Source: a virus. Taken from it: a DNA stretch of 35,909 bases. Each line of letters begins with the position of its first letter. Position 1 is the first letter of the stretch. The notes beneath the pieces were generated by a model. It ran no database searches, had not been told where the DNA came from, and saw nothing but the letters and a program-made list of their open reading frames with translations. The translations under genes and the position numbers were made by a program. The DNA is taken from the IMG/VR virus record IMGVR_UViG_3300013122_000008, positions 1 to 35,909 of that record. The stretch is one strand, 5' to 3'. This document shows, in pieces, positions 2,643-34,610 of this stretch.

Positions 2643-3866
2643 TTATCCTACAAAGTTATTGATAATAGAGCCAGCAACTGACAAAAATTGCATTTGAATT
2701 AGTCTTGCGTTTATATATGGTGGTTCTTGATTTTCTGTGCTTGTGTCAACTGATATTGAGCTAGTAGAAGAATTAGAGCCAGCACTTGTTGTTCCAGCGT
2801 GTGAATGAGAGCCAGACATCCCATTACTTCCACCGTTTCTATATGCCCCTGTATAAGTCGCTGTTGAAGAAGAATAAGAGTGAGTATGTGATGATCCAAC
2901 GTGAGAATGAGTCAGAGCAGAATGTGTGTGAGTATTACTGCCACCAGTAGATAATGCACCACCGCTTGTCTGACCTTTGATATAAATATTGCTATACCCA
3001 AGATCAGTCCAGCCTATAGGTAAAACACTTTCTGTATATAAGGCTATATCGCCTACTTTCGGGATAGAATTACTTGTTATTTTCCAAAAATGCATTTGTC
3101 TATACGCTACGTCTTGAGTAACAGATGATAGATTATCACTATTACTAACAGTTTCCGAGTGCGAACCAAAATAAATATCGTGCGAATGTTGTCTAATAAT
3201 AATGCTATCTGTTTCACCACCGCCAAGAGCAAAACTAGAAACATTGCCACAATTAGCTCCTGCGTGTTCGTGATATAAAGTGTGCGAGTGACTAGACGAG
3301 TGATTATGCGTACTTACAGATGCATTACCGCCAGCATTTTGACCAGTTCCAGCTCCTTTCATATATTTGCCATTTAAGCTATCAAAATGAGTTGAGTTTT
3401 CTCTGTTACTAGTATCGTTTCTAATTGCGATCCCATTTATCGGATACAAATTGTACTTATCGCTTTTAATAAAAATTAACTCATATCTAGATAATTCATT
3501 AGTAGCTGTTCCAATAGTCAGACTTGACGAGCTACAAGTTTGACCAGTCATACCGCCAGAAGTTACAGAGGCGTGTTCGTGAGGTGAGGGATAAACGTCA
3601 TAAGGTGGTGCGTCCTTGTGTCTTCCGTCTGTTTTTACTGTGTTTCCACCGCTAATTGTGCCTGTTGAATGAGTGTGTCCGTTAGATGAGAAAGTATGAG
3701 AGTGAGCAGAATTAGTGTGTGTGTGAGTAGTTGCACCACCAGTACTAGCCCAATTAGAAGTAGTTATTTTTGGGTATTTTCCATCAAATCTAGTGTCTCT
3801 ACTCCACCCGCTAGGAATGTCTGCGTGATTGCCGTCAAAGGGAATTACAATATTGGGGCTAAGCGT
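2643..3866 (-). CDS. His-rich tail fibre/collar protein with apparent ACG start
   Basis: 407 aa if translation starts at ACG (3866-3864). The frame is open from there down through the first ATG at 3551, and an AAAAGGAG Shine-Dalgarno sits five bases before the ACG; there is no in-frame ATG, GTG or TTG start in between. The 105 extra residues match the rest in style. Three repeated modules, each with a GG or AGG segment followed by clusters of HxH (THTH, HSHT, THNH), occur at about residues 40-65, 180-205 and 325-350. Modules 1 and 3 carry a GW lead-in. In T4 gp37 such HxH clusters bind iron along the fibre. The C-terminal EPPYINARLIQMQF is typical of phage tail-collar domains. It probably mediates host recognition. 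Confidence 0.75.
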   Translation of the reverse strand, partial: TLSPNIVIPFDGNHADIPSGWSRDTRFDGKYPKITTSNWASTGGATTHTHTNSAHSHTFSSNGHTHSTGTISGGNTVKTDGRHKDAPPYDVYPSPHEHASVTSGGMTGQTCSSSSLTIGTATNELSRYELIFIKSDKYNLYPINGIAIRNDTSNRENSTHFDSLNGKYMKGAGTGQNAGGNASVSTHNHSSSHSHTLYHEHAGANCGNVSSFALGGGETDSIIIRQHSHDIYFGSHSETVSNSDNLSSVTQDVAYRQMHFWKITSNSIPKVGDIALYTESVLPIGWTDLGYSNIYIKGQTSGGALSTGGSNTHTHSALTHSHVGSSHTHSYSSSTATYTGAYRNGGSNGMSGSHSHAGTTSAGSNSSTSSISVDTSTENQEPPYINARLIQMQFLSVAGSIINNFVG

Positions 3867-3868
3867 AT

Positions 3869-4045
3869 TTACTCCTTTTCAATTACCTGACTAACTCTAT
3901 AAAACTTCTTGTTGATATATTTTTTTGCTTTCTCTAATGCCTCTTGTTCAGTCTTAGCGTAAACTTCAAGAGTACAAACATCAGTCAATCTTTGATCTAC
4001 TTGGCTTTGTTCCTCATAGCCTTGGATTATAAAAATTGTTTTCAT
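3869..4045 (-). CDS. Small hypothetical protein between tail genes
   Basis: 58 aa, start at 4045 with GGAG eight bases upstream. It has a beta-alpha layout: a hydrophobic strand (KTIFIIQGY), a second strand (CTLEVYA) and a helix (TEQEALEKAKKYINKKF). Its last codons carry the AAAAGGAG ribosome binding site of the fibre gene, so the two are translationally coupled. I do not recognise a family. Confidence 0.65.
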   Translation of the reverse strand: MKTIFIIQGYEEQSQVDQRLTDVCTLEVYAKTEQEALEKAKKYINKKFYRVSQVIEKE

Positions 4046-4047
4046 TT

Positions 4048-4878
4048 TTAGTACTCCTTTCCAGCAAGATATCCGTTATAAGTGGCTGTACCTGTTTTCT
4101 CTATTACAAAATCAGTAATATCATTAGCACCAACCGCCAAAGTAGTATCTGGGCTTAACCAAGTAATGCCACTAAACCAAGTTATTGTCCTATTACCTGT
4201 TGCGTCTTGTATCGCTGTGAGTTTCAACATATCGCCAATTTCCATATTCGTAGGAGCTGAAATTGTCGGGCTACCAGTCATAACTACTTTTTGTTTTGCT
4301 CCATCTAGAAAATTGATTGCAAGAGGTGAAGCATAAGTAAGAGTATAAATTGGGGTGGGTGATTGTAAAAACACTCTTTGACTAGTATTTGTTATATTGG
4401 CGTCTGAAATACCAGTAGCACCATTAGCAACGTAGACATCTGCTAATCTTAAAAATGGATTGCCAGCACCAATAGCCGATTGAATAGCCGAGTCATCTGG
4501 AGTAGTCGGTGATCCAGCAGGCGAGCCATTGACCGTATCAAAAAAAGCTACATCATCACCACCATCGTTAGCACCTGGGGTAGCTGACAAATCTAAATAA
4601 ACCACCACCGCAGTATATCTAGGATTGCCACTAGAGTTAGCGTCAATTTCAACATCGGTTGCGACTGTGTTTCTAACTGGGTAGGCATTAGTATCTGTAC
4701 CTTTCAAAAAACAATGACCAGCACCAACACTAACATTTAATCCAGATGTAGGTTCGGTTACTAAAAAATCGGTTGAGGGAGTAATTAAACCGCCTTTTTT
4801 AACCAGATCAGTAAAACCTTGTAAAACTGATGTTTCTGGATGATTTGTAACTCCCGATCTTTGCGAAAATAATGCCAT
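4048..4878 (-). CDS. Tail/baseplate-associated structural protein
   Basis: 276 aa. The N-terminal half (about 20-175) resembles phage proteins that supply a beta-rich baseplate or fibre-attachment domain (GHCFLKGTD, PRYTAVVVYLDLS, FLRLADVYV). The C-terminal part has repeated beta-strand segments ending GYLAGKEY. It is rich in T, S, G, A and N with no cysteines or membrane segments, as expected of a virion protein. It lies between the collar protein and the His-rich fibre and starts after AAAAAAGGAG. The exact role (upper baseplate, fibre adaptor) cannot be set from sequence alone. Confidence 0.65.
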   Translation of the reverse strand: MALFSQRSGVTNHPETSVLQGFTDLVKKGGLITPSTDFLVTEPTSGLNVSVGAGHCFLKGTDTNAYPVRNTVATDVEIDANSSGNPRYTAVVVYLDLSATPGANDGGDDVAFFDTVNGSPAGSPTTPDDSAIQSAIGAGNPFLRLADVYVANGATGISDANITNTSQRVFLQSPTPIYTLTYASPLAINFLDGAKQKVVMTGSPTISAPTNMEIGDMLKLTAIQDATGNRTITWFSGITWLSPDTTLAVGANDITDFVIEKTGTATYNGYLAGKEY

Positions 4879-7356: not shown

Positions 7357-9108
7357 TTAAACCCTAGCAAAAGCTAATTGCTCACCTAAGATATTACCCA
7401 AAGTCAATGCGTCAAGAGGTGTATTGATAATTGCATTTACATTTATTGGCTGTTGATAATTATTGTTATTTGTAACACTACTCGGCATAGAAGATTTGCC
7501 ATTTAACATATCTTTGCTAATCACGTATTCCCCTTGATGTACCATAGCCAATCCGGTATTTTTTACCCAGCCACCTTTTTCGTACCAGTCAACATTAAAC
7601 TTCGGATATTTTATGTCTTTGCCCATTATGTTTACTGAACCCTCGCCAATGTTCAAGTGAGGAAACTTAATTGATCTCAAAGCGTTTGTAATTCCCTCTG
7701 CCAATGCCTTAAACTTATCAATAATTGCGTCTTTAAAACTAGAAACTTTAGAAGACATAGCGTCTAACTTATCACCAAACTTTTCATGTACATAATTTAT
7801 AGCTGTCTCAACCACACTTTTTATTGTGTTGAAGATAAGCACAAAGCTATTTTTTAGATTTTCTAATACTGTTTTTATATGATTAAACATAGCTTCAAAA
7901 ATGGCTTTTGCAACCACAAACATTGTTTCAAGAATAGTTTTTAACACATTAAACATAAAAGTATAAATAGCAATCATTAAGTCAATAAACCACTTATGCT
8001 TTTGATACCATTCATCTACTTTTGTTACAATTAGATTTTTGATGTATTCAAATACTTCTGTAAACTTCAACCAAATACTATTTAAAAACTCCATAATTTG
8101 ATCTCGCCATAAGAAAAAAGCAACAGCAAGCAGACCGATCACAACAATCACTCCGCCAATGGTCAAAATAATACCGCCAAATGCTGTACTAGCGATAATT
8201 CCCACCGCAAAAATAATAGTTCCAAGAGCAGTTATTGCTACGCCAACAACCCCAATAGTAAGCCCTAAAGCAATTAACATCGTTAGTAATTTTGGATGTT
8301 CTTGAGCAAAATTGCCTATCTTTTCTATTACTATTGCTAATTTATCAATAAATTGGTTTACTATTGGCAATAATTGTTCACCCATAGTATTTTTTAACAT
8401 TGTAATTTTGTCATTGAGGTTTGAAAGTTGACCTGCGGTAGTTAGAGACTGGTTATACATCATATCGTGAAAACGCCCACCCTCTGCTGTTACTGACATA
8501 AAAGCATTTTTTACATCTTCAAAACTAACTTCACCATTGCTGACCATTTCCATTAAAGCCCCATTGGTTACACCCATTGCGTCTGCTAGATTAAAACCAG
8601 CCTCTGTAAGTTGTCTAAGTTCTGTTCCCATTAACTGACCTCTAGCTTGTATTTGACCAAAAGCTAAAACTAATTGAGGTAGTTTTTCCATACCAACACC
8701 ACTTGCGACATCACCTAAAGCCCTAAATACAGGAATTAAATCACCTGCGGAAGTTCCCATAGCCATTAACCGCTTGGATTGTTCTAGTATTTGGGGTATT
8801 TCAAAAGGGGTTTGTGCAGCAAATTGAACCAAATCATTTAATGTTTTTTGTCCTAATTCCATACTGCCAGTTAGAGTATTAAAAGCTACTGATTGTTGCT
8901 CAAAACTTGAGGCAGTTTCTACTAAACTTTTGGTTAGCAATGCTGTACCTGCACCGATAGCAGTAAATCCAGCACCGATCTTAACCATTGAAGACCCAAA
9001 ATCTTGTATATTTTTTCCAGATACTTGAGATAATTTATCACCAAATTGCTGTAGTGTTTTGCTCGCCTCGTCCTTTAGTCTCAAGATATAGGAAAGTTCG
9101 TTAGTCAT
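7357..9108 (-). CDS. Tape measure protein
   Basis: 583 aa. The N-terminal half has the TP901-type tape measure core (LVETASSFEQQSVAFNTL, TPFEIPQILEQSKRL, GQIQARGQLMGTELRQLTEA). A cluster of hydrophobic helices at about 270-335 is followed by long amphipathic helical repeats. The C-terminus is a beta segment near GGWVKNTGLAMVHQGEYVI. Tape measure length sets tail length. At roughly 0.15 nm per residue this predicts a short tail of about 80-90 nm (rule of thumb). It lies between the chaperone genes and Dit as in other siphoviruses. Confidence 0.9.
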   Translation of the reverse strand: MTNELSYILRLKDEASKTLQQFGDKLSQVSGKNIQDFGSSMVKIGAGFTAIGAGTALLTKSLVETASSFEQQSVAFNTLTGSMELGQKTLNDLVQFAAQTPFEIPQILEQSKRLMAMGTSAGDLIPVFRALGDVASGVGMEKLPQLVLAFGQIQARGQLMGTELRQLTEAGFNLADAMGVTNGALMEMVSNGEVSFEDVKNAFMSVTAEGGRFHDMMYNQSLTTAGQLSNLNDKITMLKNTMGEQLLPIVNQFIDKLAIVIEKIGNFAQEHPKLLTMLIALGLTIGVVGVAITALGTIIFAVGIIASTAFGGIILTIGGVIVVIGLLAVAFFLWRDQIMEFLNSIWLKFTEVFEYIKNLIVTKVDEWYQKHKWFIDLMIAIYTFMFNVLKTILETMFVVAKAIFEAMFNHIKTVLENLKNSFVLIFNTIKSVVETAINYVHEKFGDKLDAMSSKVSSFKDAIIDKFKALAEGITNALRSIKFPHLNIGEGSVNIMGKDIKYPKFNVDWYEKGGWVKNTGLAMVHQGEYVISKDMLNGKSSMPSSVTNNNNYQQPINVNAIINTPLDALTLGNILGEQLAFARV

Positions 9109-9129: not shown

Positions 9130-9348
9130 CTACTTCCTTGAGCTTTTTCTATTATTCTTTTTCATCTCAAACTCGTCATATTCACTTTTTACAGATAAGT
9201 AAAATATCATTTTACTAACCCATTCTTCGGGCTGTTTATCAAGTTCGGTTTTGGATAAATTGAGAGAAATACAGAGATATTGTTCATCAAATTCTTCTGG
9301 CAATCTGCCATGCCCTGCGAAGAATTGCCACAAGGCATGGCGGTTTAG
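9130..9348 (-). CDS. Tail assembly chaperone GT extension (made by -1 frameshift)
   Basis: This frame has no convincing start of its own (TTG at 9333, no Shine-Dalgarno). It is read by -1 slippage from the gene at 9345-9680. After slippage translation continues from C9348 as LNRHALWQFFAGHGRLP, adding 72 residues and making a fusion of about 183 aa. GPEEF/EEWVSKMIFYLSVKSEYDEFEM fits the T domain of G/GT chaperones, which coats the tape measure during tail assembly. It ends in a basic tail (KKNNRKSSRK). Confidence 0.85.
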   Translation of the reverse strand, partial: LNRHALWQFFAGHGRLPEEFDEQYLCISLNLSKTELDKQPEEWVSKMIFYLSVKSEYDEFEMKKNNRKSSRK

Positions 9349-9354
9349 TTTTTT
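9307..9354 (-). promoter_or_regulatory. Programmed -1 ribosomal frameshift signal
   Basis: The mRNA reads GC A AAA AAC TAA. The heptamer A AAA AAC (9354-9348) is in the right phase and sits directly before the 0-frame stop. Six bases after it begins a perfect eight-base-pair stem, GCCATGCC (9341-9334) with GGCATGGC (9314-9307), enclosing 19 bases. Heptamer, spacer and stem match classical -1 frameshift sites, and the location between tail tube and tape measure is where G/GT frameshifts occur. Confidence 0.88.
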
Positions 9355-9680
9355 GCTATTTTTGAAGTAGTAAGCGTATCAGTAACCACTTTATAAACTG
9401 CGTCTGCGTCATCATTCGGCATTTTAGTACCAACGAAGTCAAACAAGTTTTCTGTTACAGCTACGCCCTCTTTATTCTTAATTTCAAGCAAGATTATTTT
9501 TAATAACTCATCTTGAGCCTCAAAAATAATACTGGCTTTCATATCCAGATTGCCTTGTGTCTTGGCATTGATTGAAGTGGAAGATAGAAAAGCCTTTTGC
9601 ACTAACCTTTTATCTCGGTAGGTTAGATCAGCCTCATCTTTGAAAGTTACAACATACCCAGAGGGAGTAGTTATTTGCAT
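9345..9680 (-). CDS. Tail assembly chaperone (G-like)
   Basis: 111 aa, starting MQITTPSGYVVTFKDEADLTYRDKR. The N-terminal beta hairpin and central helices are like phage tail assembly chaperones placed between tail tube and tape measure. The last codons GCA AAA AAC before TAA form a slippery heptamer, so a fraction of ribosomes make a longer GT product. The G form is normally in excess. The assignment rests on position plus the frameshift signal. Confidence 0.85.
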   Translation of the reverse strand: MQITTPSGYVVTFKDEADLTYRDKRLVQKAFLSSTSINAKTQGNLDMKASIIFEAQDELLKIILLEIKNKEGVAVTENLFDFVGTKMPNDDADAVYKVVTDTLTTSKIAKN

Positions 9681-17140: not shown

Positions 17141-18814
17141 TTATAGAAAATCAATGATAGGCTCACCACCAAATTGGGCTGATAACTGAATGGCAAGCGT
17201 AAGACTATCGCAGGTATCGTCAAACTGTCCATAAGGTAAAGCTAATAACTCTTGCTTTAACTCTAACATATCACTGGCTATAAATACCTTTCCATTCTCG
17301 AAGTGAGGGGCTAATTCTACTCTAAACTTCTCAATCTTATTTTTGATTGTCTTAATTCCTACTATTGGGAGATTGGTTTGTTTCTTCAATGTATTAACTG
17401 TATCATACTGAAACACGTTTTCCTCAACACCTATTGCTAAAGGGTTGTATCTGTTGCCTAAGCTAACAATTGCTTTTAACCTTTCGGCAAACTCAATTCT
17501 AGCTTTGAAGATATCTAGTACATAAATCTTTAGCGTTTCACCCTCTTTAATTACTCTAATTGTTGCTCCTGCTGTAGAATCACCACTCCCGACATCTTTA
17601 CCTACGCTTAAATCCCAAGCTTGAAACACATCACCATAATCTGGGGCTACTGTATATGTCTTAATCCATTCTGGCTTGATAATCTCACCCATAGCTTCAA
17701 GAGGTATATTGCGATACTCTTTGAGCCAATACCTCTCACCAAATTGGCTACTCATATCGGCTTTGACTTTCATCAAGTCGTCCCAAGAAAATAACTCAGG
17801 AGCTAACACCTGTTTCTTTTCTTCACTCACAATAGCGTCTAGCGTTTCACAATGAAAATCATCTGGCAACCTGTTATACAAATCGTCTTCACGCTGTATT
17901 GTGCCAATAACAATAATTTTCTTATCTTCACCTGCTTTTGTAATCATCGGGTACACATCGGAGTAAAACTTGCGAATAGCTTTATCATTTTTAACATCAG
18001 AATAAATCACTTGTTGGTCTATCACGTCATCAAGTACGATAATATCGGGGTGTTTTCCAACTATTCCAGAGCCAAAACTACTGGCTGTCAGTGTTGTTCC
18101 GTCCATTAACCGCAATGCACCATCTTTCCAATTTTTAGCCTCATCAATCTTGATTGTTTGTGAAAATACAGGATTGCGTTCAATAATTGACTGAATTAAC
18201 CTGACTTTTTCAATGGCTATGTCTTTACTTAAATGCAAGTATATAATTTCTAAGGGATAATCTCTCTCAAAAATACGTCTAACAAGATACTGGCAAACTG
18301 TCGTAGTCTTTAGATGTTCTCTGGGAGCAACAATCCTTGACTTTGGGTGCTTGTCCCAAACGTCAAAATAGTGTTGTTGTATTTGCGGTACTTGCCAATT
18401 CTTAAAATTGGCTTCCTCGTCATAATCTAAAATAAAACTTTTTATAAAACGCTTAAAGGTGATATTTTTTGAAATTGTAACTATTTCTTTCAAAAACTCG
18501 TCTGCTTTTTTTTCGTGATCATCTTTATCTAAATATTTATCAAACTCTTCTTTATCAAACACCCAAGACATATCCTCAATAATGCTTTTTCTTACTTCGT
18601 AGATGTTTTTTACATTGTCCATTTTTTTAATCTCGCTAAAGCTAAAGCCATCAATTAACCTTGAAACTACTTTTTTTTTAACTCCTGTAAAGTTGCCTAA
18701 AAAGACTTCCTTTTCTAGATCGTTATAATACTGATCTTCGTACTCAACCGCTGGCAAACTCCCTGACCTACATTCGTCAATGGGTATGGTGTGAGCAAGC
18801 CATTTTAATTTCAC
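17141..18814 (-). CDS. Terminase large subunit
   Basis: 557 aa. The ATPase part has a Walker A-like APREHLKTT (163-171) and Walker B IIVLDDV (258-264). The RNase H-like nuclease part has AWDLSVGKD (Asp 401), GVEEN (Glu 464/465) and FDDTCD (532-536), which are the acidic metal ligands. About 100 residues precede the ATPase. It powers DNA packaging through the portal and cuts concatemers. It overlaps nothing but follows the small subunit by five bases, upstream of the portal. Confidence 0.95.
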   Translation of the reverse strand: MKLKWLAHTIPIDECRSGSLPAVEYEDQYYNDLEKEVFLGNFTGVKKKVVSRLIDGFSFSEIKKMDNVKNIYEVRKSIIEDMSWVFDKEEFDKYLDKDDHEKKADEFLKEIVTISKNITFKRFIKSFILDYDEEANFKNWQVPQIQQHYFDVWDKHPKSRIVAPREHLKTTTVCQYLVRRIFERDYPLEIIYLHLSKDIAIEKVRLIQSIIERNPVFSQTIKIDEAKNWKDGALRLMDGTTLTASSFGSGIVGKHPDIIVLDDVIDQQVIYSDVKNDKAIRKFYSDVYPMITKAGEDKKIIVIGTIQREDDLYNRLPDDFHCETLDAIVSEEKKQVLAPELFSWDDLMKVKADMSSQFGERYWLKEYRNIPLEAMGEIIKPEWIKTYTVAPDYGDVFQAWDLSVGKDVGSGDSTAGATIRVIKEGETLKIYVLDIFKARIEFAERLKAIVSLGNRYNPLAIGVEENVFQYDTVNTLKKQTNLPIVGIKTIKNKIEKFRVELAPHFENGKVFIASDMLELKQELLALPYGQFDDTCDSLTLAIQLSAQFGGEPIIDFL

Positions 18815-21313: not shown

Positions 21314-22041
21314 TTTTTAACTTTGCAATCAATATTTTGCTTTATACCAGAGTACTTTTTGTAATGTCTAACGTGATCAAACTTGTTGCCAATTGACTGT
21401 TGTATATTATTCCTTATTCGGTCGCTCCAGTCAATGGACAAACCACTTTTTTCAAATCCGATATAGTTTTTTGCCACTCTAAACTTCAACCCATTTTCAA
21501 CACTCACTTTGCCACTTTCAGATAATGTTGTGCTAGTAAATGCTAAATGCTCAACCAAACTTGGAGCTGTTACATAAACTGGCTTGTTCACGTACTCCAA
21601 AAACATACTCATTCGCACATCATCGGCAATTATGTCATCTTTAACTAAAACGTCAAAATCAAGGTACTGGCTCACTAATTTGGCTGGTATTATGTAACAA
21701 GGCAAGCCCCAAGCACGATCTAACACTCCCCAATGTCTACCTGCTCTTAATGCTTCTGTTGTAACGTCATAAGCACTAAATAACGATATAAAATTACTCG
21801 GTCTTAACTTGATCAATTCTCTAGCAGTAGCAACCAAATCTTTACAAGGTAAAACGTCATCTTGAATAACCATTAAATGCGAATGATCTTCAATCTTAGA
21901 AAAACATTTTTTCATTCCACTAACGCTACTAACTATATCTTCTATCACTAAGTAACTATCTGCTTTTTCTTTATCAAGAAACGTGAGCAATAATTTTAAA
22001 TGTCTAACTCGGCTTGGGTGATGTTGAATACAAACCATCAT
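21310..22041 (-). CDS. Glycosyltransferase-like protein (GT-A, GT25-like)
   Basis: 243 aa. Features of the GT25/LPS-glycosyltransferase kind: an N-terminal HPSRVRHLKLLLTFLD, a DxD-like acidic site VIQDDVLPCKDL (residues about 78-89), WGVLDRAWGLPCYIIPAKLV (donor/acceptor region) and DDIIADDVRM. The start at 22041 overlaps the stop of an upstream glycosyltransferase remnant (ATGATG). It in turn overlaps the ParB-like gene by four bases, so it is co-translated with the modification genes. Target may be modified DNA, virion proteins or cell surface sugars. Confidence 0.65.
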   Translation of the reverse strand: MMVCIQHHPSRVRHLKLLLTFLDKEKADSYLVIEDIVSSVSGMKKCFSKIEDHSHLMVIQDDVLPCKDLVATARELIKLRPSNFISLFSAYDVTTEALRAGRHWGVLDRAWGLPCYIIPAKLVSQYLDFDVLVKDDIIADDVRMSMFLEYVNKPVYVTAPSLVEHLAFTSTTLSESGKVSVENGLKFRVAKNYIGFEKSGLSIDWSDRIRNNIQQSIGNKFDHVRHYKKYSGIKQNIDCKVKK

Positions 22042-22247
22042 AGCTCATTAAACCTACTTATCCAATCTGTACCGATTGCTAGATGACCGCTTGCTAAGTG
22101 AGTGGCAAGACTACAAACAGGAGAAAATAAATTAACACCACTAATCATTAACTTACTCCACATAATCCAATCGTGCTGACCAAAATAAAAGTCATCTACA
22201 TATTTATCAAACACTTCTTTTTTAACTGCAAAAGTATGCGTTGTTAT
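22038..22247 (-). pseudogene. C-terminal remnant of a third glycosyltransferase
   Basis: The region between two glycosyltransferase genes is open for 69 codons with no ATG at its head, being preceded by TGA. It reads THTFAVKKEVFDKYVDDFYF, then GQHDWIMWSKLMISG, then ATHLASGHLAIGTDWISRF, like the end of a GT-A domain (large-residue helix with the D-W-x-M-W motif). Its stop codon overlaps the next start in the ATGATG form typical of an operon, so the end is native and the front was lost. Neither a -1 nor a +1 shift joins it to the upstream gene. Internal GTG or ATG starts exist but lack a ribosome binding site. Confidence 0.6.
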
Positions 22248-33854: not shown

Positions 33855-34610
33855 TCAATATCCGCCCTTAAATCTACCCTCTTTCATCATTTTCACAATC
33901 CACTTGTCCTCATCAGTTGGCTTTGGTTTGGCTTTTTCTTTTTCCTCTGCTTGTTTGTCTGAAATTGTTTTTACATAGTGCCACCTAATTGAATTATTGA
34001 TCCACTTGTTGATTGTTGCCTCTACGTTTTGAATTTCAATGTTTTTCTCTGAAGACTTAGCTAACATATCCTCTAAACAATAGACAACATCTTTTTCTCT
34101 TATGTCAAACTTTTTGGCTAACTCCACAATTTTTGGATTATCCAATTCCTTGTTTTCAAAAAAAGAAAAAACAATTTTTTTATTTATTAAATAAATATTA
34201 TTTTCTTTCTTTTCCTTTCCTTTCCTTTCCTTTATAGTATTACTATCGTATTTTGATCGTAATACGTTCGTATTCTTTTTATTCCATCTCGCCATAACAG
34301 ACTCTTTTGCTTTTTGTGATTTTTCTATTCTTTTTTGCAATCTTTGATTGATTGAGTTGCTCCAAAAGTACGTTTTATCGTGCTCAAAACATACGCTAAT
34401 TATTTTTCGTAATACGTTCGTATCACAGCGCAAAGAAAATGCATAACTATTTAATTTGTCTAGTTTAAGTTTTCCATTTTCCTCATAAAGCATTTCAACA
34501 ATGCACCAAAAAATACCGATACCTTCCATTCCAAAAGTCATCAAAATATCTTGTAATTTAGTATCATTTCTAGCGTTGTAGTCGTGAGAAAAATAATAAC
34601 TATCTTTCAT
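33855..34610 (-). CDS. DUF4373 (Lin1244/Lin1753-like) replication protein
   Basis: 251 aa from ATG 34610 after AAAGATT; the earlier in-frame ATG lies in the upstream gene. SYYFSHDYNARNDTKLQDIL then GIGIFWCIVEMLYEENGKL and NSYAFSLRCDTNVLRKII are the DUF4373 N-terminal domain. A variable basic linker (about 110-140) contains a run of GGAAA repeats in the DNA. The C-terminal part has a DnaD-like helical region (KIVELAKKFDIREKDVVYCL, ...NKWINNSIRWHY). It probably loads the helicase or binds the origin. Confidence 0.8.
   Translation of the reverse strand: MKDSYYFSHDYNARNDTKLQDILMTFGMEGIGIFWCIVEMLYEENGKLKLDKLNSYAFSLRCDTNVLRKIISVCFEHDKTYFWSNSINQRLQKRIEKSQKAKESVMARWNKKNTNVLRSKYDSNTIKERKGKEKKENNIYLINKKIVFSFFENKELDNPKIVELAKKFDIREKDVVYCLEDMLAKSSEKNIEIQNVEATINKWINNSIRWHYVKTISDKQAEEKEKAKPKPTDEDKWIVKMMKEGRFKGGY
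34211..34230 (-). repeat. Pentanucleotide repeat (TTTCC)4 in a coding region
   Basis: Plus-strand TTTCC four times, so GGAAA on the coding strand, within the DUF4373 gene (encodes about KERKGKEKKEN). Five is not a multiple of three, so gain or loss of one unit would shift the frame. Confidence 0.75.

Follow-up and report, generated by a model that had tools for sequence, protein, structure and literature searches.

A tail fiber gene without any ordinary start codon at its beginning raises the question of where its protein starts. The gene lies in a 35,909-base virus record from IMG/VR, analyzed here as a whole and called the window, at 2643 to 3866 on the minus strand, a placement based on the stop-to-stop frame, full-length homologs, alignment, a structure model, and matches in BFVD. 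An in-frame TGA at 3881-3879 precedes the frame, which opens at 3878 and runs for 411 codons to the stop at 2643. Upstream of 3551 this frame has no ATG, GTG, or TTG, and none with a Shine-Dalgarno (SD) motif at usable spacing is found anywhere in it; the first canonical ATG (3549-3551, frame codon 110) is internal and has no SD. In start-codon position there is an ACG (3864-3866), set five bases after the SD sequence AAAAGGAG (3872-3879, minus strand) by the spacer TAAAT. Counted from the ACG, the fiber is 407 aa long, versus 302 aa for the ordinary ORF 2643-3551. Because the gene would begin at ACG, gene finders based on ATG, GTG, and TTG miss its first 105 residues, encoded at 3552-3866 with the start included. 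The original prediction had described this open frame, the ACG and its spacing, and a protein beginning hidden from ordinary gene callers, all of which we find as described. It had also said that neighboring genes have ATG at a like distance from an SD, as is true of both upstream genes (starts at 4878 and 4045).

Comparing the codon in related phages was one check proposed with that prediction, and all 7 close homologs have an ATG either at the ACG residue or one codon earlier, a count that leaves out L012, which has no N-terminal alignment. Five of them (L002, L004, L010, L018, and L019) have it at that very residue and two (L017 and L026) one codon upstream; L017, L018, L019, and L026 were found via the neighboring gene. 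From its ATG, L002 (IMGVR_UViG_3300031227_014724) reads MISPNIILPFDGNHADIP, and the window at the matching place reads TLSPNIVIPFDGNHADIP from ACG. The homologs in L004 (JAFRKQ010000021.1, a bacterial genome assembly titled as goat jejunum, lying in G001) and L010 (IMGVR_UViG_3300025018_000345) are full length at 410 aa and 411 aa, and over the eight N-terminal residues of the latter, MLSPNIVI, the window differs at residue 1 only. Annotated phage records gave no tblastn match to the fiber. Matches are present in 2 of 88 genomes from the order of G001 and in 3 of 379 from its phylum, those outside G001 being distant or part of larger proteins and left out of the census below. The alignment strongly supports the ACG as occupying the ancestral start-codon position. 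Since it sits at the start and the 105 residues are conserved in frame, we take the protein to be 407 aa and not 302, and because this gene model depends on homology, it stands even if the ACG proves to be a minor allele or an error.

The 105 residues have the character of coding sequence. Residues 1-105 have a homologous region, conserved in frame, in all seven relatives, and over residues 2-105 each of the seven pairwise comparisons finds conservation lowest at codon position 3 and highest at position 2, which strongly supports the earlier claim that these residues belong to the protein. That claim cited a His-rich module and the PPY end of a collar domain, and the region does contain THTHT..HSH..HTHS and APPY, in keeping with the build of the fiber as a whole, in which His-rich modules repeat and each is followed by a beta-rich knob segment. 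In the AlphaFold model, residues 1-40 have pLDDT values of 75-93 and the His-rich stretches are poor, for an overall value of 53. BFVD fold matches at E = 2.4e-13 to 2.6e-7 are to tail-collar and other phage proteins, with phiAsp2 Pas28 and Pas29 and an uncultured Caudovirales "tail collar domain" protein having a fold like that of the window fiber. Profile matches to tail-fiber chains in PDB (9qgo, 9nxk, and 6ov6) cover the C-terminal half (E = 1e-8 to 4e-5); a PDB fold search with the model gave no significant match. Set against known tail collar and fiber proteins, the window fiber differs in that a Pfam and PHROG search finds no family reaching threshold. Its position, with the tape measure (7357-9108) and baseplate-type genes upstream, fits the placement of a tail fiber after the tape measure. 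A lysis gene would be expected to follow: the larger ORFs after the fiber in L004 and L010 look endolysin-like by eye, and for the window gene at 1679-2638 the one family match is weak and unconvincing.

Just upstream of the fiber is a 58-aa ORF, weakly DUF4288-like (3869-4045, minus strand), whose TAA (3871-3869) lies within the five-base spacer between AAAAGGAG and the ACG and ends two bases before the ACG. With this arrangement, the small ORF and the fiber are likely to be translationally coupled. Homologs of the small ORF stand in the same place in L002, L004, L010, L017, and L018, so that small ORF then fiber is a common gene order, and the small ORF could be a fiber-specific partner. The predicted anti-SD duplex energy of the window site is -8.2. 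On its minus strand the window has 17 copies of the motif AAGGAG: 10 have an ATG 4-11 bases further on that begins an ORF of 40 codons or more, 1 precedes the fiber ACG, and the remaining 6 have no ATG, GTG, or TTG opening such an ORF after them. The start region is less folded than its shuffles: of 200 shuffled versions, 194 fold as well or better. Since L017 pairs an identical AAAAGGAG with ATG, the strong SD need not be compensation for the ACG. A search for a phage-encoded initiator tRNA found no tRNA of any kind in the window.

Other genes of the window serve as a control. Of the 24 homologous frames compared with record G005, 21 begin with ATG or GTG where a start is expected or close to it, including two (1679-2638 and 7357-9108) that align C-terminally only and whose starts were judged by position. 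The 3 without a canonical start are the fiber, a frameshift product (9130-9378), and a remnant (22038-22247). In the gene family just upstream of the fiber, all 13 non-redundant members have an ATG start. By these comparisons, the window is not generally odd in its starts.

The two companions of the fiber in this group have features of their own. On the minus strand, the ORF 9345-9680 ends GCA AAA AAC TAA, containing the slippery heptamer A AAA AAC, and is joined by 9130-9378, a frame that lacks a start of its own and lies immediately ahead of the tape measure gene; the fusion would be 183 aa. G005 has an equivalent pair of overlapping frames, ending CCT AAA AAA AAA TAG. We take this to be a -1 frameshift of the lambda G/GT type. 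The frame at 22038-22247 (minus strand) has 69 codons, no start near its beginning, and a match to the C-terminus of a 234-aa G005 frame, and so looks like the remnant of a larger gene. Elsewhere, at 34210-34235 (minus strand), there are AAAGG units in tandem within a coding frame.

How unusual the ACG is within the fiber family can be put in numbers. A profile from eight homologs found 141 relatives in IMG/VR, of which 80 were kept; with the window and L004, this makes 82 loci. Dropping 22 whose frame is open for at least 25 codons upstream, as parts of larger proteins, leaves 60 free-standing ones, and dropping 8 near-duplicates leaves 52 that are non-redundant. The start codons of these are 47 ATG, 2 GTG, 1 ACG (the window), 1 ATA (L043), and 1 left unassigned (L072). 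Thus, none of the 52 but the window has an ACG start, and the codon is not conserved in relatives.

The ATA case is L043 (IMGVR_UViG_3300038673_000739), whose fiber homolog appears to start with ATA behind AAAAAGGAGGTG (L043:2987-3003). It reads AAAAAGGAGGTGTAAC ATA ATA GCC CCC..., directly after the point where a small upstream ORF ends, an ORF that corresponds by position to the 58-aa ORF. An alternative start for this homolog is the in-frame TTG at 2971, nine codons upstream of the ATA; this TTG has no clear SD and does not fall at the conserved start position. In anti-SD duplex energy, L043 ranks first of the 52 and the window eighth. The SD is stronger before the 4 non-ATG starts than before the 47 ATG starts (Mann-Whitney p = 0.004, post hoc), and also before the ACG and ATA starts taken alone (p = 0.010, post hoc), in comparisons that have just four non-ATG cases, ignore shared ancestry, and assume one anti-SD for all hosts. 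Conceivably, near-cognate starts recur in this family at the same codon, behind reinforced SDs and beside a small-ORF stop, although we regard that generalization from the window and L043 as doubtful. Were it true, it would imply a low, coupled, IF3-sensitive fiber dose.

For the window itself, we lean, with some reserve, toward the reading that the ancestral ATG has genuinely changed, T to C, and that the resulting ACG is used as a weak start for the 407-aa fiber. The original prediction had posed a weak start and an ATG-to-ACG change as alternatives. The change is supported, because every close relative has ATG; the choice between the two falls away, because such a change would itself make a weak start. 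On this reading, an ancestor had ATG at 3866 and the T-to-C change gave ACG, which the initiator tRNA would still decode at low efficiency. AAAAGGAG would hold the ribosome in place at the ACG, ribosomes finishing the 58-aa ORF would reinitiate there, and full-length fiber would be made in an amount below that from ATG. Published work offers pieces of this scheme. Reinitiation is described as aided by SD sequences and short intercistronic distance (PMC2268962), weaker starts such as GUG and UUG as tending toward stronger SD sites (PMC5622118), natural AUA and AUU starts in S. aureus as having extended SDs (PMC13009471), and the GTC start of Streptomyces sigR as lying behind AGGAGGTG (PMC5472188). 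In an E. coli RFP reporter, ACG is given as 0.1-1.5% of ATG, the authors calling the effects highly context-dependent (PMC6925171), and the very low efficiency in at least this one reporter would be hard to reconcile with the needs of a structural protein.

Two other readings accept the ancestral ATG and place the ACG differently. The sole near-identical record, L007 (IMGVR_UViG_3300013138_000105), differs from the window by 5 mismatches in 16,269 bases without indels, and it ends at window position 8460, short of the fiber gene. Two of the differences, at 17877 and 17890, are within 14 bases of each other and change the terminase (Y313C and E309K). Exact-pattern scans found no second copy over the ACG, in a search that may omit the window's own or a very near record. 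The ACG might be real but a minor or mildly harmful allele in a population that is mostly ATG, with the consensus having taken the variant. The ATG of all close relatives is in keeping with this, as is a population polymorphic enough for two assemblies to differ at those 5 sites, two of them amino-acid changes, but a start-codon change is unlikely at that rate of polymorphism, and the other genes compared look intact but for the one remnant frame; we hold this reading to be unlikely, yet worth weighing. A one-base assembly or sequencing error in a phage that has ATG would likewise account for a base unlike that of all close relatives, in an unverified metagenome record with no second record over the base. 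Against it, the 24 pairs compared include no disrupted gene other than that remnant, the 16 kb shared with L007 are free of indels, and there is little prior chance of an error hitting a start codon precisely, so that we consider an error distinctly unlikely.

The readings that dispense with a start at this position fare worse than the preferred one, in which the ACG is a real change and a weak start. A gene caller would choose ATG 3551, the first canonical codon, and the 105 upstream codons could on that account be an untranslated remnant. There is no SD at 3551, though, Met occupies that column in just 2 of the 6 homologs covering it, the codons before it have homologs and are conserved in the manner of coding sequence, and truncation would lose the well-modeled first 40 residues; this start is rejected by homology and is very improbable. 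The ATT codons at residues 6 and 8 were rejected as well, being at least 20 bases from the SD and within the conserved N-terminal motif. Finally, a -1 frameshift out of the 58-aa ORF might yield the fiber with no need for a start codon, given that the fiber is in the -1 frame of the small ORF in the window, L002, and L004, and that this phage has a classic -1 site elsewhere. The -1 register is expected anyway from ATGA and TAATG overlaps, the overlap GAA AAG GAG TAA lacks an X XXY YYZ heptamer, and L002 and L004, both with ATG, have no slip site in common. Lacking a shared slippery site, a fusion with the upstream ORF was rejected, and we give it hardly any credence.

If it works, the fiber ACG would be a naturally occurring start of this kind among phage structural genes; titles and abstract openings from literature searches show no evident example, nor do the passages cited here. 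It would also mean that the start-codon rules of viral annotation can cut off the beginnings of proteins, here by 105 residues. The nearest comparisons are with cellular genes. According to two papers (PMC13009471, PMC5472188), infC of E. coli (AUU), infC of S. aureus (AUA), and pcnB (AUU) are like the fiber in having a codon near-cognate for AUG and low initiation. Their starts are proven and belong to host regulatory or housekeeping genes, whereas the fiber ACG is a predicted start, and it differs from the infC and pcnB codons in having its mismatch at the middle base. In Streptomyces sigR, the start is conserved across species and shown experimentally, whereas the fiber ACG is in one record only; like the fiber, sigR combines a very unusual start with a very strong SD and was missed by annotation (PMC5472188).
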